Of a stretch of DNA of 22,127 bases, positions 4,914-21,529 are shown piece after piece; within the stretch, counting starts at the first letter, position 1; each line of letters starts with the position of its first letter. The DNA is from Mesaphorura yosii (taxonomy: Eukaryota > Arthropoda > Collembola > Poduromorpha > Tullbergiidae): the NCBI GenBank assembly GCA_009869945.1, contig WIXG01000779.1, positions 1 to 22,127 on the forward strand, written 5' to 3'. A program made the translations under genes and the position numbers. The notes beneath the pieces were generated by a model, which did no database searches, was not told the DNA's origin, and saw nothing but the letters and a program-made list of their open reading frames with translations.

Positions 4914-6318
4914 GTGACAGGAGAAAAGTTGATGTTTGCATTGATCCGAACTGAAGCTTGAGTTCCTGGGTTTTGAGGCAGAGAATTCCAGCCACCGAAT
5001 GAGGCTTGGAACTGAACCAGAACGACGTTGTACGAACAAACGGCGCCAAATAGCTGTTATGAATTATTATAATTAGTTAAGTTCCCAGCATACGTCAAAG
5101 CTAATTGTCAAAACTACCAAACTTCGTAGAGAATTGGTACCTTACCGAAATTAGCATGGCTCTGTTCAGTTTAAAGTACTTGCATGCACTCAGTTGGAAC
5201 TCCACCTCACCGCCGGCTCCTGCGAGCAGCCTGCGTACGATGTCAAAGGTTTCCCGATCCTGCGCTGGAACGCTGGAGTCAGGAATTGTCAGCACAGCAG
5301 CCTTCAGCTGGGCCGCCGTAAGGTGTAGGCTCTCTCCGGCATTCGTAATCAGAACGAGTTTGCATCCGTATCCGAAGAGAAGCACGTAGACTCCGAGGTA
5401 GAAAATCGGCTCCGCGTCCAGATTCAGAACGAATGTGAATGCACCGAGAAATACAACCAAAGTGATTGCCACAAAGTGCGTGGCAGTGATGACTAGCGCT
5501 GGAATCCCGACAAATGTGTCCAGGTGCTTAAAGATCGCGATCAGGCTCGAGATTTGGGCACGCAGTTGTGGGGCGTTGACAAGAACCATTCCTTTGCCAT
5601 TGCCAGTACCCCATTCCGTTAATCGCCTCAATTCGTCGCAAAATGCTTCGGTAGCCGTCAGCATCGACTCAACAGTCAAGGACCTCACAAGCTCACATAA
5701 GAGAAAGTGAACTATCATCAACGCGAAGAATAAAACCTCGTTTCCGCTTCCACCCAGCAGGCCCCACAACCACGACGACTCCCAAGTTTCTGGACTCAGG
5801 TGTTGAAAAACTCGTACGAAGAACACGAAGCAGCAGCCGATGATGATCAAATTCGTTGCCCAATATATCCAACGGAGAATTTTCCGAGTTTTTGTCCAAC
5901 TCACCTTGCATTTTGAATTCTTACTCGTATTCTTATTCAGTACGCTCCTTTGGCAAGTCTGCCTGTACTCCTGAATTGCATTGACCAATCGCACAAAGTT
6001 GGGCACCGAGACAAGCCAACAAGCGAGAGTCGTGTAGCTCTCGACGCAGAACCACGCGTTGACAAGTTCGCCAACTCGGGTCAGGAAATTGTTGCTGGCT
6101 CGAAGAGAAATTTGGGTTTCATCGTCTGTGCCGATCATATACGTGGCCAAAATGAATGTCTGCGCGGAGAGCACATTCAAGACCAGCACGAACAGGAACC
6201 AAATACCACGGGCATTGAGCACCGTCCATTTGTAAGTATTAAGCCCATCTAGTTTGATTGGGGCCAGGCCCAGAAGGCAGGCAAGGCTCAGCAGGAGTCT
6301 CAGGCTTTGGTGTTCCAT
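4907..6318 (-). CDS. Gustatory receptor family protein (Gr-like 1), 439 aa
   Basis: A seven-TM chemoreceptor of the insect gustatory receptor type, a presumed ligand-gated cation channel in sensory neuron membranes. Exon 1 runs 6318-5146; exon 2 runs 5053-4907. The 92-bp intron (5054-5145, GTAAG...CAG) is phase 0, exactly where the Gr family has its conserved last intron. The C-terminus carries the family signature: FQLSACKYFKLNRAMLIS in exon 1, then LFGAVCSYNVVLVQFQ in exon 2, the TYhhhhhQF-type motif with SY in place of TY. Other conserved blocks are IFKHLDTFVGIPALVI and LLFGYGCKLVLITNAGESL. The start was put at ATG 6318 (MEHQSLRLLLSLACLLGL); the frame is open upstream only through a TTG, with no better ATG. 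Exon 2 extends about 30 residues past the motif with a polar tail, longer than usual. The paralogue at 9083-10492 has the same exon structure. The ligand cannot be inferred. Confidence 0.87.
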
Positions 6319-6401
6319 CGCAGACCGTAGCCAGACAGAACCAACAACCAACTGCAACTACTGAAGAGCTCGAGCGGTGGGAAAAGAAAAATTGCACTGT
6401 T

Positions 6402-7608: not shown

Positions 7609-8893
7609 ATGATTACGAAATTTAGCATGCACCTGCTTCAATTTTCTGTGGGTGCCGCTCATACGTGTAAAATATCCCCTTATCGGTGGAATTGGAAGCA
7701 GAATCGTATGGAATTGGACAGTTCAAGGGTCCATCGGGTTTTGTACACCATCACACGCCTGATCTTCGCTGTAAATCAAGTCATCATGACTGTGCGGGTC
7801 GTGAATGCCCTGCTGGACCTAAACACTTCCAACCTGTACAGGATTCTGCCGCCTGTGTACTTGATATGCCGCTCCTTGACCTGTCTGTTGCTCTGTATGC
7901 TCGCTACGAGTGGGGTCACGTACCTGACGTGGGCAAACCAGTGTCTGGGCCATTTCAACCAAGTACAAAAGCAGTATTTGAAGAAGAATGTGCTTCTTGA
8001 GAGCAAGAAAGAGAAGGGCATATTCAGCTTAAGCTTGAGTGAACGCTTGGGGTTGGGACTGACAATTGTGTCTTTCCTTCTTCCATTCCCGATCGTTGGG
8101 CTCTATTTCAGTAAGTTATTGGCCCTCAATTCCTGTTAAATGTTGCCTAAGTAAGAAATTTGAATTGTTTGCTTTGTCTTTAGCTTTCGTGGACTCGCCG
8201 ATGTACGTCGCCTCGCTCATCCCAACCGATCAATCGTACTCTCTTTGGCTGTACTTGCTGGGCGCAGGCTTCGAGGCCTACCTCACCGCCATTGGAATGT
8301 CAGTGGTTGCTGCGGTGTGTAATCTCGTTCTCATACTTGTACCAAACACCATATTCTGGCTTGGAGAAATCCGTGCGCATGCACAGCATGGCAGCAGCCA
8401 CTTCACAACCGCAAAACTCCGCGAGCCGGCCCACGCCCTGCATTTTTATCGCTGCCTTGAACTGCTCGTCCGACTTGCCAACGAGCTTCTTGCCCGTACT
8501 CGAATTGAACTCGCACACACTGCCATCATTGCTTGTGCCGTCATTTCGAATGTGATCCTGATTCGGTACCACCTTCTCGTTTCGTTCTCTGGCCTCCTCA
8601 TCTTTGTCTCGTTGGTTATTGTGGCAGCCACCTTCCTGGCGTACTTGCACATCATGCTCGGGCAGATCTGTACGACATCAAAAGCATTCCTTGGGAACTG
8701 CAATTGCAGCAACCATACAAACTTGACGGACGCTGACCGCCAGCTTCTGCTCAAATACATCAAATCATGTCGACCACTCCGGTTTGACATCGGTTCCTTC
8801 GGCTCATTCCAGCGTCTCGGGGCTCTTCGGCAGCTCGGACGAATCGTGGTGTACACGGTCAAGACTCTCGTCACAATGAAGTACTCAGCCTGA
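7609..8893 (+). CDS. Seven-TM chemoreceptor-like protein, 403 aa
   Basis: Exon 1 is 7609-8110, exon 2 is 8184-8893. The 73-bp intron (8111-8183, GTAAGT...TTTAG) is phase 1 and the joined frame is exactly 404 codons with the TGA stop. The protein has about seven hydrophobic segments, including YLICRSLTCLLLCMLATSGV, LTIVSFLLPFPIVGLYF, GMSVVAAVCNLVLILV and LIFVSLVIVAATFLAYL, with little charged loop sequence. The C-terminus has CRPLRFDIGSFGSFQRLG followed by a last helix. It lacks the TYhhhhhQF motif of the two minus-strand gustatory receptors, so it belongs to a different, possibly lineage-specific, chemoreceptor branch. Two related relics in the window (1198-2396 and 6402-6590) show the family has been duplicating and dying here. 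A non-sensory 7-TM function is possible. Confidence 0.75.
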
Positions 8894-9082: not shown

Positions 9083-10492
9083 TTAACTTCGGATTGTTGT
9101 ATTGCTCGACTCTGCTATTGATTCACCAAACGAGACTTGAAACTGAATGATGACGACGTTGTAGGAGCAGACCGCTGCCAACAGCTGCAAAATATGTTAA
9201 CAAAACTTAATGTGTGTTCCCTTGAATGAATTTGCGGAGAAAGAAGTGAAATACTGCAAAGCGCTTACCGAAATTGACATCGCCCGGTTGATCTTGAAGA
9301 ATCTGCATGCAGTTAACTGAAAATTGACCTCACCCACAAATCTCTGCAGTGATTGCAATGTTGTGTGCTCCAGGAACGGGGCTCTTGCGGGTAAGCGGAT
9401 GGCCAAGAGAGCCGCCTTCATCTCCCTCTCTCGCCGCTGCAGTTCATCGCCGGCGTTTGTGATCAGCACGAGCTTGAAGATGTAGCCGAACAAGAAGGTC
9501 AGCAGAGTCACTTGATAAACCACCGGATTGTTGATCCTACGACCGTAGATTGAGGCGGTGATAAAGATCAGCAGTGTAATGGCCATGAAGTGGGTGACCC
9601 CGATGATGAGCGCTGGAATCCCGATGAATGCCTCGAGGTGCTTGAAAAGATCGCAGAGAGCCGTGAGCTGGTTTACGGCCACGGCGCCCGCTCCCTTCAA
9701 CTCCAGTTCACCCGTCCGAGCTGCGCTTGCCATCAACTCCAGCTTTTCTCCAAACGCACGTGAGGTACTCAGTATAAATTCTATGGTCAAAGCTATCGAC
9801 ATCTCGCAGACGACCATGTGGACAAAGATGAGAGTAAAAGAAAGCGACATGTTGCCCGTGCCAGCGAGGAGCCACGACCACGACACGAGGGGTACACGCG
9901 GCTCGATGAACTGCAAGAATAAAATGTAGCTCCCGGATATGCTGCCAGCTGTGAGAAGCCAAAATGCCCAGCGGAGAAGAATCAACACCTTCTTGCCAAA
10001 ACCGGACAAGAGCCAGAGCTTGAAGCCTGAAGGATGATGAGCATGGTCGCCCCGCCCACGGCCGCGCCTGGGAAATTTGAAATCGTACTCCCGCATCGCG
10101 TTTAGGAACCCAACAAAATTAGGCAGCGCCACAAACCAAGCGCCACACATCGTGTAGATTTCTACTACGAACCAAACGTTTGTGACGGCCGTCATCCGCG
10201 CCATGAAAGTACTGGAGATATGGGGTACGTCCCCCTGCGTTGAGAGATACGTGGCCATTGTGATCGTTTGCGCACAGATGGCGTTGTAAACGAGGAGAAA
10301 CATGGACCATAAGCCCCAGAAACTCTGCGCCGTGATCTGATAAGCCTGAGCCCGCGCCGGCGGAACGATACCGGAACTCGAATCAAAGTCAAGAAGCAGT
10401 GATTTGACGGGGAATTGGCCCAGAAGGCCACTCAGACGAATAAGTGCTCCAGGAGCAGTTTGGTGGCGTCGGCGTGTTTGCGACGGACCCAT
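9083..10492 (-). CDS. Gustatory receptor family protein (Gr-like 2), about 441 aa
   Basis: Paralogue of the receptor at 4907-6318, same family and presumed role as a chemosensory cation channel. Exon 1 is 10492-9269, exon 2 is 9184-9083; the 84-bp phase-0 intron (9185-9268, GTAAGC...GCAG) is in the same codon position as in the paralogue. Signature residues are FQLTACRFFKINRAMSIS at the end of exon 1 and LLAAVCSYNVVIIQFQ at the start of exon 2. The shared blocks LFKHLEAFIGIPALIIGVTH and FLFGYIFKLVLITNAGDEL are present. Start: ATG at 10492 has good context (AAAATGG) and gives MGPSQTRRRHQ; the frame is also open to an ATG at 10630, which would add 46 polar residues that look like 5' UTR. An intracellular loop has a Gly-Arg-rich run (PRRGRGRGDHAHH) not found in the paralogue. 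The receptor converges with the 7609 gene. Confidence 0.87.
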
Positions 10493-10630
10493 TTTGAGTT
10501 GAGGAGGGCAATTTTGCAGCTTCCTAAGTAAGTCTGAATTCGGGATGAGCGTGAATCGCGAATTTCTTCGATTTGAAAATTGCAGTTTCGGACAATTAGC
10601 AATTATGCTAATGAATGCTCTGCAAGACAT

Positions 10631-10988: not shown

Positions 10989-13976
10989 TCAAGTGAAGTC
11001 TGCCGTCAATAAAATCTTCTTTATGCTCCCGAAATCAGGCCTCGCATCGACGGAGTACGTCCAGCATTCTTGAATCAGATTAAACCTGTACGATAAACAA
11101 GGAAATGATTATTCGGCTGACTTTTCTCATCGTTGGTACCAAAATCGGGCAAACTTACAATTCGTCGTTCGCGTACTGTGGCCTCGTGAGCCTCAACCCG
11201 CACTTTAGCTGATCAATAAAGCTGGGGCTCCACTCCAGCCCTCCATACGGGATGGCGCCAAGTGTGAACAGTTCCCACGTCGTCACTCCGAACGACCACA
11301 CGTCTGACTTGGAACTGATACTCATGTTGGCGAGCACTTCGGGAGCCATCCACCGCCAAGGGAGCTGAGCATCCTTTTGAATTTTGGCGCTGGCTGAATT
11401 ATAATAGTACATCTGGCGGGAGAGCCCAAAGTCACTGATTTTCGCCGTCAGATTGTAGTCAAGAAGAATATTTCGAACTGCGAGGTCACCGTGAACTATT
11501 TTGTGCCTGGAGAGGAAATCCATCCCGTTCACAATCTGCTGACTCCATTTAAGGAGTGTGGTTGCGTCGAACTGCTGCTCCAGCGAGCTCGCTGTGACGT
11601 AACTGCTAAAAAAAAACATACGGTCAATCACTGCCTTGAAGAACAACTTGCCTACTATTTGCTATCAAGACAGCGCTTTTACCTCTCAGATGGCAGCTCT
11701 GGCGTGTACACCAAAATTTGCGGGAATTCTTGAATTCGGTCGTTGACCTGAGCTTCTTCCAGCTCTTTCGCCCGAAATTTGTGCTTATTTTCACGCAGAT
11801 AATCGGTGATGCTTCCAAATCCACAAAACTCGACGGCAATGTAAAGTTCAACTGGAAGTTCAAAGCATATCAATGAACAAGGCTGGTCAATAAAGGATAA
11901 AGGTCAATGAGCTAATATGCCGTTCCCTTACAATTGCGAATCTCCTCCGTGTACGCCCCAACGAGACGGATCACGTTCTCGTGCCCGCCTTTGATAAAAT
12001 TCACGTAGGCCATGATTTTGAGCTCGACCAAAAACGTTTTGAACATTTCCTTGTTGACGATATCGCGCTTCAGAACTTTGATGGCGGCAATTTTCCCGTC
12101 GACAAACCCTTTGTACACGACTCCGAAGGCGCCACCGCCAATTTCCTCACGGAACTGAATCTTTGATTTGTCGAGGTCGTAAATGTAGGGCATTTGCATT
12201 GAATTCAGCTGCACATCGTCGGGATCCTCGGCCCCATTCATCCCGTACGAGAACTCCCACCCAAAAATGTCGTCCGAGTTGGCGTCCTGCACGCCCTGCC
12301 GGAATTCGCTGACTTCTTCGTCGGTGAGGAAAAGCGACCGCCGTCTCTGACTTCGTTTGTACGTGACAAAGGCGCCGATTCCAAAAAGCACGATAATGCC
12401 GGCAACAATGGTGCTGGCCAAGTACAGGGTCATACTATTGACTTTGTCTTTCGTCCCGCAGACAGCTTCCGTTTCGTCTTCGCCCAGAGCGCAGTCTCGC
12501 ACTCCGTCGCAGTTCATAGCCATCTTTCCCGTCTCCGAATTTACAGCCGGGACACAATCGCCGTATACGCCGCATTCAAACTCGTTGCTCTTGCAGAAAT
12601 TCTTTGCCCGACAGTAAATCGGGTTTTCGTCAGAGCCATCGGAACATTGCTCGTTTTGGTCACAGACGAGCTGCAGTCCGATGCACTGGCCGTTATCACA
12701 TGCGTACTGGTTCGGTCCGCAGTTGACGCCTTCGTTAATCCACCGCAGCGTGTCGGGCGTGAATGTAAGCACATACGCCGTGGGGCCGGCAAACACTTCG
12801 TGGGCGATGCCGTTGAAGATCCCGACGACCGTCCGTCTTGGAGGTGTTGGAGGCTCCTCGTCCTGGCGGTGCTTTCGCTTGCGCGCGTGCGTATTTTCAT
12901 CGTGCGCGTGCGTGGTTTGTATGTTGAAGTAAAATTTCTCGACGCAGAGCCCATGATCTTCCGTGTCAAGCGTCCCCGTCCCGTTCCTCGTCTCCTTCGT
13001 CGTGGGCGTACCACAGATTCTGTTTTTGTACACCGTGCCTTCGATGGGCGAGTACTCGGCTTGTCGCGTCCAAACACTGATGCAGTAGTCCCAAGGCTCT
13101 ACCAGCAGCTTGAAGGCTGTGTCCGCCTGTACAAGGGCAAAGTGGTAGTAACATTTCCACCCCGAAATCAGGTTCACGTCTCCGGGCTCGATTATGGATC
13201 GCTTGTCATGGGCCGTCTGATTGTACCACGACTCACTCCAGTCTGGCAGGCACAACGGTCGAATTTGCCGTGTGAATGTGATTGGCTCCTCCAAGTGAAT
13301 AAGAGCAAAATCGTCGTCGGCGCTCATCCAGTGTTTCGTGCGCATGGAGCTGTTCGGATGGAGTCGCACGTGTGAAATCCTCCGCTGGACCTGATCCTTG
13401 AGCCGAATGTGGTAATTTTTCGTAGGCTCCAGCATAAACTTTCCGTCCGAGTGCGGAGAACGAAATGCTCTGCCACCTTCAGTAGAATCATGAATCAAGT
13501 ACACTCGAAGTAATGCATCCACTTTTGGGCGGGTTTTGGCACGGAGTTTGAACTTTTTGATCCGTACCTGTTAAAAGTGTGTAGCGGCTGATAATCACTG
13601 CTGGCCAATATTTGTCCTTCTCTGACTCTTCAGACTCGTTCTCGGAGATACGCATTATCGCTAACCACGGGAATCCTCTCGCGTCTTCATCGCTGATTTT
13701 GCAGTCTACGAGTACATTACTTGGAGTAGAAAATGAGGAAGAAGTTTGGGAAGCCGACTTACTGTCAAATTCGTTCCAGTCCCGATCAACATCTTCGCTC
13801 CTTCTCTGAGATTCGATAGGCACTGGATTCGACGAAACGGCTGAACCATCGTTTAACGGATTTTGCACTGGAATTGGATTGTATTCCTGTCCAAGTGCAC
13901 GCCCAAGAGACCACCGCACAAGTGCAACTGCAGCGAAGATTGGAAGTAATTTATTGGAGAAATAAAATATGTGCAT
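10989..13976 (-). CDS. RTK-A: pseudoprotease-LDLa-TM receptor tyrosine kinase, 887 aa
   Basis: Exons, in transcript order: 13976-13568, 13476-11932, 11851-11683, 11602-11159, 11085-10989; introns of 91, 80, 80 and 73 bp are all GT-AG and the CDS totals 888 codons. Residues 1-30 are a signal peptide. About 92-385 is a trypsin fold: FPWLAIM, RYTLLTG, DDDFALIHL, RPLCLP, LISGW, NRICG, GIFNGIA and LRWI follow the S1 order. The LTAAHC histidine and GDSGG serine are absent; the Asp102 position keeps D192, so no protease activity is expected. Two LDLa modules follow (389-425 with CSDGSDENPIYC; 431-476), then a TM helix (485-509) and RSQRRR stop-transfer. The kinase has GGGAFG (583-588), K603, E621, an insert of about 40 residues, HGDLAVRN (745-752, HRD arginine replaced by Gly), DFG (765-767), APE (794-796), DVWSFG, and CWTYSVDARPDF, ending 18 residues after this RPDF motif. 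The split kinase and PYIYDL juxtamembrane motif resemble PDGFR/VEGFR/Torso-type RTKs. Family novelty is inferred from memory. Confidence 0.87.
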
Positions 13977-14461
13977 AATTGCGTTAATCTACATAATCCC
14001 TTGCGTTCAGGTTGGTCAGGTATCAAAGTTCAGCTACTAACTGTGGCTTTAAATTATGTAAGTCGGGTGATGCCATTGCCAGTGTCATTATCATGGCCAC
14101 AAGTCTGTTCTGTTGAGTGGGCCAGGAGTATTCAATCGTGTCGGTATCTTTTCAGTCTTGCAATTTACAATTAGTGGCTACTTGTTTCTTGTGGGAAATT
14201 CTGGTGATAAGCAACACACTGACTTATTGCAGCATGATTCAAGCGGCTATCATTCGAGTGCGCGGTCATCAAATTAGCAAACGTACATATGCCATATCTA
14301 ATCAGGGCTGGATGTTGAACTGAGTGTACAAGCGAAGCAAGTAAGCAAAAATTCGTCAGTGACATTATTTTGTCGATGGCAAGCTAATAGGCAATAGCTT
14401 ATTTATAGAATGCCAATTGTCCTGCTGCGGCTTACAACTATTTCAAGCTTCAGCTCATAAA
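13977..14461. other. Divergent intergenic region upstream of RTK-A
   Basis: No gene was supported. Short frames at 13971-14323 (+) and 14171-14365 (-) overlap each other and lack family features. This interval should contain the RTK-A promoter and part of that of the secreted-protein gene at 14698. Confidence 0.4.
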
Positions 14462-14486
14462 AAGCCCATTAATGATTAATGGGCTT
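14462..14486. repeat. Perfect inverted repeat, 12-bp arms, 1-base spacer
   Basis: AAGCCCATTAAT (14462-14473) and ATTAATGGGCTT (14475-14486) are perfect reverse complements around a single G. The right arm runs into C followed by six T. It looks like a bacterial intrinsic terminator, but the context is clearly eukaryotic, so it is recorded only as a hairpin or cruciform-capable repeat. Confidence 0.85.
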
Positions 14487-14562
14487 CTTTTTTAAGAATT
14501 TTGAATAGGTCCAACCCTGAATCTTCTCCTAAACATAAAAAACGTGTTTCTTTTTTAAGAAT
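14485..14562. repeat. Pair of 15-bp direct repeats
   Basis: TTCTTTTTTAAGAAT occurs at 14485-14499 and again at 14548-14562, 63 bases apart. The first copy abuts the right arm of the inverted repeat. Each copy is itself a partial dyad (TTCTT...AAGAA). Confidence 0.75.
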
Positions 14563-14697
14563 CTCATTATGGATCGATTCCGGACTCTACTTACACCTTT
14601 GAACAATTCGACTTTCGATCTCATTCCAGTTCTGGTGCCGTGTCGTGAAGATCTTTTACTTTCACCTTCTGGTCTTTAAACAATACCAGCAACAACA

Positions 14698-15291
14698 ATG
14701 AAGTTGAGCGTATGTCCGCGTCTTTGTCTCAAATTACCTCCACCACGCGTGAGCCACGCAATTTAATTATAATTCTGTCCCGTTTCGCAGGTTATCGTGC
14801 TCCTGTCAGTCATCGCCTGCACGGCCGGCAACACCGCCACCACCACAGCCGCCGCTGCATTCGATTCGATTCCAAGGCCGCGGACTCTCTTCATTGGTTC
14901 CAGTAACAGCAACAACGGGGCCACCAACATGGAAAGAGGCAAAAAACATCAAAAATACAATAGCCACGACTCCAACACCAAGCTGACTGTGTCCAAGTAC
15001 AGCGTCAGCGGACGTGGGACGCGTTACAGGCGAGACACTCAAGCAATCTTCGACGAGGCACAGATCGAGGCGCCAGCACCGGCGTTAATCTCCACACTAG
15101 TCGCACCCGAGCCAGCGCGAACGCCTGCGATGGACATGGAGCCCAGCACGACAATCTGGCCATTCTCCTACCTCTTCGGAGGACCGAGCCGCCGTCGCGT
15201 CGTCGTCTCTCGCCGTGGACGCCCGTATGGCACGTACCGCCGTAAAGGCTGGTGGCCTTCTGGCAGTGCTGTGCGCGATGCGTGGTGGTAA
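14698..15291 (+). CDS. Secreted basic, Trp-rich C-terminal protein, 170 aa, family unknown
   Basis: Exon 1 is only 12 bases (14698-14709, MKLS); an 81-bp intron (14710-14790, GTATGT...CGCAG, phase 0) joins exon 2 (14791-15291). The joined start MKLSVIVLLSVIACTAG is a clean signal peptide; splitting a signal peptide after a few codons is common in arthropod cuticle and secreted-peptide genes. The mature part begins Ala/Thr-rich. It contains GRGTRYRRDTQ with a furin-like RYRR site (about residues 78-81), an Ala/Pro-rich middle, then a basic C-terminus: GPSRRRVVVSRRGRPYGTYR followed by RKGWWPSG and a terminal WW. There are almost no Cys residues after the signal peptide. It could be a precursor cut into a C-terminal cationic peptide, a cuticular or matrix protein, or something else; function is unknown. 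It sits between RTK-A and RTK-B on the opposite strand and converges with RTK-B. Confidence 0.72.
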
Positions 15292-15398
15292 TTGGCTTGG
15301 GTGACAAGAAGACACAGAAACTGCACAGAGATTTCACTGATACGGTTACTGATGCGGTCTGGCTTTTGGTAGACTTTGACTTCCATTTCTTTTGCTAT

Positions 15399-15408
15399 TT
15401 TATTTATT
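15399..15408 (-). promoter_or_regulatory. Minus-strand poly(A) signals for RTK-B
   Basis: Overlapping TTTATT words on the + strand give two AATAAA signals on the minus strand, about 65-70 bases past the RTK-B stop. Confidence 0.5.
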
Positions 15409-15413
15409 TTTAC

Positions 15414-15419
15414 AATAAA
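15414..15419 (+). promoter_or_regulatory. Poly(A) signal AATAAA for the 14698-15291 gene
   Basis: AATAAA 123 bases after the stop at 15291, six bases from the opposite-strand signals of RTK-B. The convergent transcripts must end within a few tens of bases of each other or overlap. Confidence 0.55.
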
Positions 15420-15470
15420 TCTAATTACTAATTTTTATTGTTCATAGTCCATAGAATAAATTGATTTGTA

Positions 15471-18385
15471 TCATTCTTCGTATGCAAAAATACCGAAATC
15501 TAAATCACACCAGCTGAGGGAACTCAACACCTCCCTCAAAACCCCAAAATCAGGTCTGTCCTCCGCTGCGTATGCCCAGCAGTCTTGGATAATTTGAAAT
15601 CTAAAATTAGTAAACAGTTTAAGCATAGTTTGTTATTCTTATATCGAGTTTGTCTTGATTTCCTATATAAAAATCACTCACAATGCATCATTCGCGAAGT
15701 GCGGCCTCGGCAGCCGTAGTCCACATTTGAGTTGCTCCAAAAAGTGCGGATTCCACTCCAGTCCACCGTACGGCACGCTGCCCAACTCGTACAGCTCCCA
15801 CAGAGTGACCCCAAAGGACCACACGTCTGACTTGGAACTCATCTTCATGGTGCCGATAACTTCGGGGGCCATCCACCGCCAAGGCAGCACGTTTCCTCGT
15901 ACTTTGGCGCATGAAGTGTAGCAGTCGATTTGGCGTGACATGCCAAAGTCGTTGATCTTGGCCGTCAAGTTATGATCGAGGAGCACATTCCTTGCTGCCA
16001 AGTCACCGTGGATTATGTTGTGCGTTGCTAGAAAATGCATTCCGTCGACAATTTGAAGTGTCCACCTGTGCAAGTATGGAATTCCGAAGGCCGGCTGTAG
16101 GGAACTGGCGGCTACATACCTGGAAAGAGTCAAAGAGTCAAAGAAAGTAGGGAAATGAACGAAGACGAGCTTACGTGTGAGGCAGCGATTCCCTTTCCAC
16201 CAGACTTTCACTTCCTTGTTGAAATTTCGACCGATTGTCGTACAGATAGTCGCCAATGCTTCCGAATCGGCAATATTCCACCACGATGTACAGCTCAACT
16301 GTAATTTCAATTTGGCAGGTTGTAGGTTGCAATTAGCGTAAACAAATTCAGATTACTCGCTCGGCTCAGGTTGACTTACAATCTCGAATTTCTGCTATGT
16401 AAGCTCCAATCAGTCGGATTACGTTCTCGTGCCCGCCTTTGATAAAATTCACGTAGGCCATGATTTTGAGCTCGACCAAAAACGTTTTGAACATTTCCTT
16501 GTTGACGAGATCGCGCTTCAGAACTTTCACGGCAACTGTTTTTCCAGCAACGACTCCCTTGTACACAACGCCAAACGCGCCTCCGCCAATTTCCTCCACT
16601 GAAATTAAAGCCCAAGATTGGAAAAATCTTAGCATTCAGTGCCATAGGCTAAGAACTTCAGCCACACTTACGAAATCTGATTTGGTGCTTTTCCAGGTCG
16701 TAAATGAACGGCATCTGCATAGAATTCAAACGGATTTCTCCTTCGCCGCTTTCTGAGCAGGTGTCACCGATTCCGCTTAATTCTTGTACGGAATTGTCAT
16801 CCACCCAAATGCCGTTGGTCGTTACTCCTTGCCGAAATCCCTGAATTTCTTGATCACTCAAGTAGTTGCTGGAGTGACTGGGCTTCATCTGCGACAAAAA
16901 TGCAGTGGATTAGTGGATATGAGAATCGACCTTGGCGCGTGGAGTAAAATGGAGACGGAGGATGCTGGGCTTACTCCGAAACGTTGGACCGCATAAAAAA
17001 AGGCTCCGACAAAGATCACCGTCCCCAAGAACGCGATATAACCCCAAAAGTCGCTCGAGCTCGGTGTTGCCGGCTCTCCGATATCAAGTCGGCAATCCGG
17101 AGTATCGTCAAATTTGTCTTTTCTCGCTTCGCAGAAAAGTGGGTTATCGTCGGAGCCGTCTGAGCATTGCTCGTCGGCAACGGATTTACACACAGAGGCC
17201 AGATCGACGCACTCACCATTGTCGCACGCGAACATGTCAGGACCACACTCAATGCTGGCGTTCATCCACTCCAGAATAGATGGGTTCAGGAGTAGAGCGT
17301 AAGCCGTCGGTCCCTTGTACACTTCCTGGGCTATTCCGTTGAAGATCCCCAGCAACACGCGCTCATTGTTCGGCCGTGTTTGAATACTGTAATAGAATTT
17401 GTCGATGCACAATATTCCACTCTGATATTCTTGGTTGAGGCCCATTTCGCTGCCATTGCGGCTGCGTTGAAGGCTCGTTTCATTAGTTGGCGACCCGCAG
17501 ATTCGGTTTTTGTACGGAGTTGCTGATCCTTCTTCCTTTGAATAGTCGGCCTGGTCTCTCCACACCTGACTACAATAATCGCCCGTCCTGACTTCCAACC
17601 CAAAGAAAGCGTTTGCTTGTCGCAGAGCGCTGTGATAATTACAAATCCAGCCGGACACGATGGTGAGCTCCCCGGGTTCAATAAAAGACTTGCCCTCGCC
17701 CTCCGCTTCTGTTTGATCCCACCAGCTTTCGTTCCACGACGGAAGGCAAAGAGGACGCAGTGTGCGGGTGAAGTTGAGGGACTCCGACAAGTGCACCAAG
17801 GCGAATTCGTTGTCAGTCTGCATCCAATGTTCAGCGCAAACTGAGATGTTTGGGTTGATGTGTATGAAGGACACGTTTACTGTCACATCGCCCTTCAGGT
17901 GGACGTGGTACATGTCCAGCTCGTGTATATTCAGCTTCCGGACCGAATAAGGCGACCGAAAAGCTCGAGAACCGGTCAGCACCGTGCGCGGGCCAATGAC
18001 GACGACGGGCCAGTACGCATCTCGTTGTGGTTCTTTTGCTTCGGAATTGTTGAAAATTCGTATCCAGCCCAACCACGGCGAGTTCTCAGCATCCTTATCG
18101 CTGATTATGCAACCTGACATAAAACAAAAGTGTCAGGCTCAGTTTCGGAACCGCCACCGCCCCATACAATTAAATGAGAAAGAACCTGAACTTACTATTA
18201 TAATCGATTCCCGATTCCAAATCGTCTTCATCTTCGCTCACTTCGCTGGACTCAAACTGGAACTCCGATTCGTCGTCAGAGACTTCCAACAAATTCTCTC
18301 TGGCACATGCTGAAAGAAACATAAGACTTATAAGGCCGGCCAGCAGAAGTAGCGGCCTTTGATTTGGCGTCATTTTTATTGACAT
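15471..18385 (-). CDS. RTK-B: pseudoprotease-LDLa-TM receptor tyrosine kinase, 818 aa
   Basis: Seven exons: 18385-18196, 18113-16975, 16888-16672, 16598-16380, 16298-16175, 16119-15682, 15600-15471; introns of 82, 86, 73, 81, 55 and 81 bp are GT-AG and the sum is 819 codons. A signal peptide (MSIKMTPNQRPLLLLAGLIS) precedes an acidic Ser/Glu/Asp-rich linker. Residues 65-347 form a trypsin fold: SPWLGWI, RTVLTGSRAF where LTAAHC is expected, DNEFALVHL with Glu at the Asp102 position (E166), RPLCLP, IVSGW, NRICG, GIFNGIA, LEWM. All three triad residues are replaced. One LDLa module (353-391, CSDGSDDNPLFC), a TM helix (418-439), and a juxtamembrane FIYDLEK follow. The kinase has GGGAFG (520-525), K540, E558, HGDLAARN (667-674), DFG (687-689), APE (714-716), DVWSFG and CWAYAAEDRPDF, then a tail of 31 residues. 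Exon 5 (FELYIVVEYCRFGSIGDYLY onward) is short and easily missed. Tandem paralogue of RTK-A; it lacks the second LDLa module. Confidence 0.88.
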
Positions 18386-19376: not shown

Positions 19377-21529
19377 TTGCTGGATGGATTCGATTGTGGA
19401 TTCAAATTGTGGAGAGACAACACCGATTCAGAATGGTTCCGACCTGGAATTCTTCCCGAGCATCCCCGCCTTATGGACTCGTGACAATTTTACCCATCTC
19501 ATTCCGTGTGATTGGCAGCGTCCGCGTCCAGGCGCTGGCTGAACCAGGTGAAGGCTCCTGCCATTGCCCTTCAATCAGTGCATCTCTGAAATCGGTGAGA
19601 TCTTTCACGCAAATGCCTATCAACTGTTTGAGATTTTATCATACCTATTCCGGTACCACAGAACGCGATACTCATTTGGCTGGTGACAGGACTCGCCGTG
19701 CTTCTTGCGGCCGCAGTGATCGTACTGGTGCTCGTGATTCGCCTGAGGTGAGAGCACGCACACGGAATTAACAAAATATGAAGTTCCGTTAAAGATTATT
19801 AAGAGCGTAAGCCCACCTCCGTTTTAGATTTCGTGCCGCGCCGTCGCCACCGACGCTATCTCTACGTGAACTTCGGTCATATATAAATGGTCCTAAGACG
19901 ATCAAAGCCAAACGATGTTCAGTACAATACATCAGGTAAGTCCTGAATTAATTCACTTTGCAGGCGCTGCTCTGCCCAGCCCAATCATTATCACACAGTA
20001 TTTGATTCGAAGTTGCTTCCCCAATCCCAAGGGCGGTCCTACACTTATAATCCGTATGCCGGTAATCGTGAATACTGGTACACGGCAACAACGCAGATTA
20101 ACCGGCTGAAATTGGCCGAATCATTCAAACCCGAGGAGTATTGGTCCGCCGTGCCTGAAAGTGCCAAGATCGAAGTTGATGAACACATTATTGGTAAGTT
20201 AACACTGATTTTTGGCGTGGGCGTTTATTGCAAGATTGCATCTCAGCTCCACGATATTGAATCCCCCTGCAGACAAATCACAATGCCTTGGCTCTGGCCA
20301 TTGGTCCATAGTGATGGCTGGCGCTCTGAAGAAACAAATTTTATTTCTTCGGTGTCGCAATTAAAATTCCCTGCGACCCAAGTAATTGGCGGCCTTTGAA
20401 ATCGTTGTACAATGAAGCCAGTACCATGCTGGAGCTGGGCCAGCATCCAAATATTGTACAATTGTGGGGCGTGCATCACAGCCCCGAGTGTTCCGCATCT
20501 CCGTGCCTCATTCTGGAACGATGTAACCGCGGCGATTTGTATGAGCGGCTCCTCGCCATCAGAGACCGGGGCAGTCGTGTACACGGCGACATGTTTTGGA
20601 TCGAACGACGAAATGGAGCCGATTTCTCGATATCGGCGTACGCTCCTTCCTACTTTGTGCTGTGGGCCCATCAGATTGCGAGCGCGATGCAGTACGTGCA
20701 TTCTAAAAATGTTAGTAGAGTTGCACCGTAAAGGCAAGGAATAGGCATCTCAAGTATCGTGACAGGCCATAGAATTCTATCATTACAGATTATCCATGGT
20801 GACATTTCCGCGAGAAACGTGCTCTTCTTCAACAGGCAGCTTGTCAAGCTCTCGAATTTCGGATTGGCAAGACAATTGTCCGATGGCGGGTCTTGCATTA
20901 GCACGACCGGGGTGAGAATGCGATACGAATGCGGATACGAAAATCACGAAGAAGAATACAAATGCATTTCTGTTCATGTTTGGCTCCTGGTTTCAGGAAT
21001 CGGCTGGGTGGCGATGGTCTCCTCTAAAAATTCTCGGATACTTCACCCTGGAGGGCTCAGAAATTCAAAAGTTTTCCAAGCACTCAGACGTTTGGTCGTT
21101 CAAAGTGGCAATGCACGAGATATTTTCACTAGACACTGAGCCGTACAAAAATTATGGGTCTCCAGAGCAGGTGTACTCCAAACTGGCCGCAGGGATCAGG
21201 CTTCCGAAGCCAGAGCTTGCGACGCCCGAAATGTAAGACAATAATCTCACACGAAATCAGTTGTCATTTATGCCATGGCGTTCCGAATCCAAGGTGATGT
21301 GCTTTGACGATTTGTATACTTTGTTTTCAGATACGATCTCATGTGTCAGTGCTGGCACGTAGAGCCTTCCAAGAGAATATCGGCTGATGATTTGGCTGAA
21401 AAATTGCATCCCAGGAAGTTCCCGTCTGCTCACGAGAAGGGCACGCTTGGGATCACCCGCATTGTCAAAACAGACAACGTCCCACTCCAGTACGTACGCG
21501 CGCCTCCACCTCAATTAATCTGTACATGA
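19377..21529 (+). CDS. RTK-C: divergent receptor kinase, probable pseudokinase or decaying gene
   Basis: Supported exons: TM 19633-19747 (PQNAILIWLVTGLAVLLAAA then VIVLVLVIRLR); 19828-19935; 19964-20193 (ends ESAKIEVDEHIIG); 20273-20710; 20789-20911; 20997-21232; 21331-21529 (TGA). Junction phases agree between consecutive exons. Kinase features are LGSGHWSIVMAG (glycine loop), VAIK lysine at 20363-20365, LYNEAS (alpha-C Glu), HPNIVQLWGVH, GDLYERL, a kinase insert, IIHGDISARN, NFG at 20855-20863 in place of DFG, WRWSPLKIL where WRWMAPE is expected, SDVWSFK, and CWHVEPSKRI for CW..RP. Loss of the DFG Asp argues against normal catalysis. The glycine loop and the VAIK segment are in frames that differ by one base (break at about 20335-20344). 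Upstream of the TM, 19378-19539 is an open frame with NGSDLEFFPSIPALWTRDNF, N-glycosylation sites and Cys, but stops (TGA 19540) and frame changes prevent joining it to the TM exon. The 5' end is unresolved; 19377 is a nominal start. Confidence 0.6.

Follow-up and report, generated by a model that had tools for sequence, protein, structure and literature searches.

The minus strand of contig C779 of the Mesaphorura yosii assembly, a 22,127-base stretch hereafter called the window, carries two complete receptor genes, RTK-A (10989..13976) and RTK-B (15471..18385), with a small plus-strand gene in between. As read from the sequence, it is virtually certain that these genes combine, in this order, a catalytically dead S1 domain, LDLa, a transmembrane (TM) helix, and a kinase. 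Receptor tyrosine kinases (RTKs) are classified by their ectodomain, and the ectodomain of the encoded RTKs would represent a class of its own. We favor the reading that these are type I RTKs whose ligand-binding ectodomain consists of a dead S1 domain of trypsin fold and then one or two LDLa modules. Searching the 93-Mb genome (1127 contigs) brought the number of such loci, including RTK-A and RTK-B, to at least 17. The genome also gave 66 matches to the R&R cuticle family, which is an arthropod family, whereas a search for COX1 gave no match.

Gene structure and the receptor family

RTK-A encodes 868 aa in six coding exons (13976-13763, 13705-13568, 13476-11932, 11851-11683, 11602-11159, and 11085-10989; minus strand), as defined by GT-AG junctions, uninterrupted reading, and Pfam. 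Exon 3 (11932..13476) joins the greater part of the S1-like domain to two LDLa modules, the TM helix, the juxtamembrane part, and the kinase N-lobe in a single open frame and lies within a stop-to-stop frame of 552 aa (11912..13570). The dead S1 domain spans approximately 12722..13705 in exons 2-3, as delimited by Pfam Trypsin (83-244), alignment to RTK-B, and triad positions; the TM helix lies at 12365..12427 (residues 468-488; hydropathy 2.33) and the tyrosine kinase domain, with HGDLAVRN and DFG, at 11013..12160 (residues 557-861; Pfam PK_Tyr). RTK-B (818 aa; Pfam) is divided into seven coding exons (18385-18196, 18113-16975, 16888-16672, 16598-16380, 16298-16175, 16119-15682, and 15600-15471; minus strand), and its exon 2 (16975..18113) holds the entire S1-like domain, LDLa, and the TM helix according to the structure model and structure search. 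Its dead S1 (trypsin-like) domain occupies approximately 17248..18113, the TM helix 16987..17049 (residues 419-439; hydropathy 1.88), and the tyrosine kinase domain 15528..16681 (residues 513-800; Pfam PK_Tyr and PDB phmmer), the last with HGDLAARN, DFG, and an inter-lobe insert. The two proteins were 52% identical, and all 11 introns of the two genes were of the GT-AG type and 55-91 bases long.

Pfam matched RTK-A to Trypsin (9.4e-8), LDLa (in two stretches), and the tyrosine kinase family (2e-68), and the same families were found in RTK-B, with a PK_Tyr E of about 1e-67 in both receptors. At E up to 1, the scan found neither an Ig family nor a MAM family, the latter accompanying LDLa in ALK/LTK, in RTK-A or RTK-B. 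Exon reading and Pfam together bore out the claim of the first-pass annotation that one spliced frame carries an S1 fold, LDLa, a TM helix, and a tyrosine kinase in both genes. The S1 domain was N-terminal to the TM helix in RTK-A, RTK-B, and the paralogue C454, which is not the order of a type II TM serine protease.

The genome search with the RTK-B ectodomain gave 33 matches, and splice-aware alignment of 20 regions revealed 15 loci beyond RTK-A and RTK-B in which an ectodomain and a kinase share a strand (C876, C320, C646, C297, C527, C1030, C444, C914, C903, C668, C608, C254, C454, C94, and C666). The resulting total is a lower bound because the search gives the best candidates only. Two loci are partial: in the C527 model, S1 is mostly missing and so is the kinase C-lobe, whereas C320, perhaps a pseudogene, has no glycine loop, no clear TM, and stop codons within its S1 match. 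A hydrophobic TM stretch was present in RTK-A, RTK-B, and 14 of the 15 other models, weakly so in C1030 (1.28), and was not found by hydropathy in the C320 model. The other five regions comprised two protease genes (C961 and C703), two loci without a demonstrated fusion (C447 and C251), and an ectodomain fragment modeled without a kinase (C533). An ectodomain fragment at L047 3054-3600, close to that of C903 by eye and modeled without a kinase, is perhaps a decayed copy. The receptor gene at C444 has a long intron, and a plus-strand frame inside it (L035 6532-7176) resembled a hAT-type transposase by eye only.

In a protein database, the RTK-B ectodomain found one relative, P0001, among 7207 candidates, RTK-A found P0001 alone again among 1199 candidates, and C454 found no relative among 7996 candidates; the database is seemingly poor in spliced animal genes, so that absence there tells little about other arthropods. 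P0001 was 94% identical to the unspliced C876 frame over 483 aa and is therefore a near copy that comes from another record and includes a read-through intron. As a query against genome contig and viral contig collections, P0001 found no relative.

Adjoining protease and kinase genes might have been fused on paper, and such neighbors do occur in this genome: at C447, an S1 gene adjoins a separate CDK-like kinase gene, and we rejected this locus as an active trypsin-kinase fusion. For the receptors, however, such an artefact is extremely improbable. The open frame runs unbroken across the S1-kinase junction at four loci, namely RTK-A, C454 (a 900-aa frame without introns that covers the entire receptor), and C444 and C903 (570-aa frames each continuous from S1 into the kinase), and for these the separate-gene explanation was rejected; the remaining loci keep ectodomain and kinase parts in the same order on a single strand. 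C251, in which a dead-S1-LDLa-active-S1 region is followed by a kinase approximately 3.7 kb downstream, was left out of the count as no fusion was demonstrated. An RTK-type S1 frame was found in none of eight strong kinase loci (L001-L008, picked solely as the best eight of the kinase matches) within 1.5-kb flanks, beyond which an exon would be missed.

Degeneration of the S1 catalytic site

His57 was replaced in all 13 copies in which it was readable (by Arg, Asp, Ala, Ser, Val, Gln, or Ile); the site coincides with an intron in C444 and C254 and is not covered in C320 and C527, leaving 13 of the 17. The Asp102 position held Asp in seven, Glu in two, Asn in five, and Phe in one of 15 copies. 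Ser195 was lost in 8 of the 16 readable copies, including RTK-A and RTK-B; this position was scored by eye because the motif is longer by one residue, which usually follows Cys191. The His57-Asp102-Ser195 triad of an active S1A protease was thus not present, and the incomplete triad is that of a pseudoprotease, as had been proposed for a dead S1 domain built into an RTK. None of the 14 readable N-termini contained the canonical R/K-[IV]VGG activation site by eye. From these residues, the S1 domain of the receptors is predicted to be dead and not activatable by the usual route.

The trypsin fold was indicated by Pfam for RTK-A and by structure matches for the models of RTK-B, whose S1 region had been singled out for modeling, and C454. 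The structure list of the C454 model included 4qt8 (the MSP beta-chain bound to RON) and 3h7o.

Several observations weigh against a uniformly dead trypsin-like domain. A Ser195 remnant (DSG, DSA, or GSG) with Ser persisted in 8 of the 16 readable copies, indicating uneven decay. In RTK-B, the Pfam matches to Trypsin (0.0026) and LDLa (0.004) were below cut-offs, and Pfam called no S1 domain in C454. The structure models had a mean predicted local distance difference test score (pLDDT) of 68 on shallow alignments (14 and 11 rows), the five C454 models spanned pLDDT 37 to 68, and the RTK-B and C454 models are not independent because their alignments share rows. Although Asp102 is also kept in 7 of 15 readable copies, it is highly improbable that the copies with Ser195 have residual hydrolase activity or an altered form of it, given the substitutions of His57 in every readable copy and the extra residue in the Ser motif.

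The same residues bear on what the domain might sense. The suggestion that it senses inhibitors fared poorly, as trapping of serpin-type inhibitors is unlikely because His57 is gone from all readable copies. As for a cascade or protease-like partner, which the first-pass annotation had also proposed, binding stands as a possibility, whereas sensing through zymogen-style cleavage was unsupported by the N-termini described above. A related alternative is a protease-activated receptor, in which a cascade protease cuts the ectodomain and thereby turns the kinase on. Candidate cut sites lie in charged N-terminal stretches of low complexity and, in the RTK-A S1 domain, in a loop rich in Lys and Arg (about residues 306-332), and S1 genes are plentiful in the genome, with at least 177 Trypsin matches; however, the basic loop is missing in RTK-B and P0001, and with no canonical zymogen site at the readable N-termini, we regard this alternative as unlikely.

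Kinase relationships and related proteases

Excluding C320 and C527, HxD was present in all 15 models and DFG in 13, the exceptions being C1030 (DFS) and C646, from whose model the stretch is missing. The closest solved structures to the whole-length RTK-B kinase in the PDB phmmer search were PDGFRA, VEGFR, FLT3, and KIT, and the top-ranked entry was a construct carrying the EGFR kinase twice.

Kinase trees recovered similar subclades, namely a clade of seven containing RTK-A and RTK-B, C444/C254 with five others, and C1030/C94. The simplest reading is one fusion followed by duplication, and a single S1-RTK kinase clade was not rejected (p-AU 0.162). The trees themselves point the other way: the best ones split the 17 S1-RTK kinases, with three and two label changes, C903 was unplaced, and a single S1-RTK kinase group appeared in 0% of 200 bootstrap trees, so that two or three fusions may have occurred.

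The genome contains at least 159 kinase-family matches, several of which showed HGDLAARN on inspection, indicating that kinases have radiated widely outside the S1 receptors. The window itself holds a third, very divergent kinase-like gene (20400-21410, plus strand) with HGDISARN and with NFG replacing DFG, possibly a pseudokinase. It is preceded by a hydrophobic stretch near 19660-19750 and had the longest branch of the kinase tree; a convincing S1 part was not found for this gene (about 20.4-21.4 kb).

The dead S1-LDLa unit also occurred in proteases. In C703, one 588-aa open frame runs from a dead S1 domain through LDLa to an intact S1 domain (LTAAHC and GDSG), C326 (L049, minus strand) encodes the same series, again with LTAAHC and GDSG, in one 742-aa open frame with a CCP-like stretch by eye, and C961, presumed to be one gene, has a dead S1 domain, LDLa, and an active S1 domain in three frames on one strand. 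The products of these three genes are presumed to be secreted. Multi-domain serine protease genes of the order dead S1-LDLa-(CCP)-active S1 were located at L045 2857-4623, L049, and L042, an order of which we know of no other example. Contigs C1096, C825, C629, and C259 each carry an S1 domain with one to four LDLa modules downstream of it on that strand.

Scored against a profile of the receptor S1 domains, the three dead protease domains reached 35.8-42.3 bits, four active S1 domains 21.2-32.9 bits, and seven shuffled sequences less than 0. An unrooted tree of 22 S1 domains separated the 15 receptor, three dead, and four active domains into three groups (92/88, 83/82, and 100/99), with shorter branches between receptor and dead domains than from either to the active ones. 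These profile scores and branch lengths favor the dead protease domains as kin of the receptor S1 domains, and the dead-S1-LDLa-active-S1 proteases are a possible source of the receptor module. Two points count against this derivation: the unrooted tree separates the groups without telling which two are nearest, and the comparison drew on only seven further S1 domains from a genome this rich in Trypsin matches, with three of its four active domains sharing their genes with the dead domains. We therefore set the tree aside as proof of origin.

Putative function and comparison with known systems

Dead S1 domains dock proteins elsewhere, as in the MSP beta-chain on RON and haptoglobin on CD163. 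The fold, the decay of the triad in a conserved domain, and the related unit in proteases suggest that the dead-S1-LDLa unit may be a protein-docking module of protease descent, and a docking or ligand-binding role is reasonably probable. Carried on a PDGFR/VEGFR-like kinase, the ectodomain would have a secreted binding partner, possibly drawn from a protease cascade or from one of immune recognition; its engagement would dimerize or rearrange the receptors, releasing the juxtamembrane segment and allowing the kinases to trans-phosphorylate. These steps of partner binding, pairing, and trans-phosphorylation are proposed by analogy with known RTKs.

Alternatively, LDLa or the linker might bind the ligand, with the dead S1 domain a spacer or shield kept for folding and distance only. 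LDLa modules are established binding modules, their motif CSDGSD(E/D) was kept in RTK-A and RTK-B by eye, and identity was lower in the ectodomain than in the kinase in 96 of 105 pairs among 15 models. The S1 core was nevertheless still recognizable in paralogues just 25-30% identical to RTK-B. In addition, the proportions of synonymous (pS) and nonsynonymous (pN) differences were 0.78 and 0.21 in the ectodomain and 0.69 and 0.15 in the kinase between RTK-B and C876, and 0.83 and 0.32 in the ectodomain and 0.68 and 0.20 in the kinase between RTK-A and RTK-B. By this sequence measure, ectodomain and kinase are both constrained in the two pairs, and no exact selection ratio is given because synonymous sites are near or at saturation. 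The occurrence of the unit in front of modular proteases also exceeds what a spacer requires, and we consider a spacer improbable.

Under the favored docking role, a ligand linked to a protease cascade is a doubtful prospect, to which we gave reduced weight because the unrooted S1 tree alone does not show the receptor and dead protease domains to be nearest. A docking role in proteolytic cascades is conceivable given that the unit is also found at the front of modular serine proteases in the genome. Tentatively, and with rather low expectation, a dead-S1-LDLa cassette from the animal's own cascade proteases may have become an expanded RTK family in which one shared upstream recognition complex or partner both recruits a cascade protease and engages the receptor. 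If so, proteolytic immune or developmental cascades would be coupled straight to phosphotyrosine signaling via a common pseudoprotease module.

Among known systems, MET/RON with HGF/MSP likewise involve a dead S1 domain in RTK signaling, but in that system the dead protease acts as a soluble ligand for a receptor built of Sema-PSI-IPT domains, whereas here it forms the receptor ectodomain. The class III/V receptors PDGFR/VEGFR supply the closest solved kinases over the full RTK-B kinase and also have the insert between lobes, and their juxtamembrane motif is presumably resembled by MP(Y/F)IYDL of the present receptors, but their ectodomain is Ig-like rather than S1-LDLa. Type II TM serine proteases (corin, enteropeptidase, matriptase, and TMPRSS6) also combine S1, LDLa, and one TM, although with the TM N-terminal and S1 C-terminal, in contrast to the N-terminal S1, TM, and intracellular kinase of the receptors. 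The scabies mite inactivated protease paralogues (SMIPP-S) are arthropod S1 domains described as inactivated, and 3h7o is one of the C454 structure matches; SMIPP-S are secreted and are not known to carry a kinase. Arthropod modular serine proteases (ModSP and HP14) and Nudel likewise unite LDLa, CCP, and S1 modules within one protein. In Nudel, a protease-like domain is followed by LDLa, and the rows covered of the same table include neither a kinase nor the dead S1-LDLa-(CCP)-active S1 order of C703, C326, and presumably C961 (Table 2, PMC10036332). Venus kinase receptors are an invertebrate RTK class with a borrowed binding module, a TM, and a kinase (PMC4038586, as far as covered), but theirs are a Venus flytrap module and an insulin-receptor-like kinase.

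An RTK with an S1 ectodomain was not found in the part of the open-access literature searched, with subscription papers and annotated arthropod proteomes outside its scope, and the words 'trypsin', 'protease', and 'peptidase' were not found in the main text of PMC8662651; within this partial coverage, the view that a dead protease as part of a receptor is unprecedented held. A trypsin-fold ectodomain would constitute a new RTK class and the reverse of HGF/MET, where the ligand is the dead protease. With a possible module source in the same genome, the rise of a receptor class from an enzyme is open to study through candidate intermediates, and direct tests are possible for orthologues, ligands, and the activity of the kinase.

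The small gene between RTK-A and RTK-B (14697-15291, plus strand) has a second exon without a Pfam match above the cut-off and probably encodes a secreted protein. Elsewhere in the window, long frames at 5101-6357 and 9197-10630 (minus strand) and 8063-8893 (plus strand), none of which Pfam matched at E up to 0.1, are rich in hydrophobic stretches and by eye may resemble multi-pass insect chemoreceptors.
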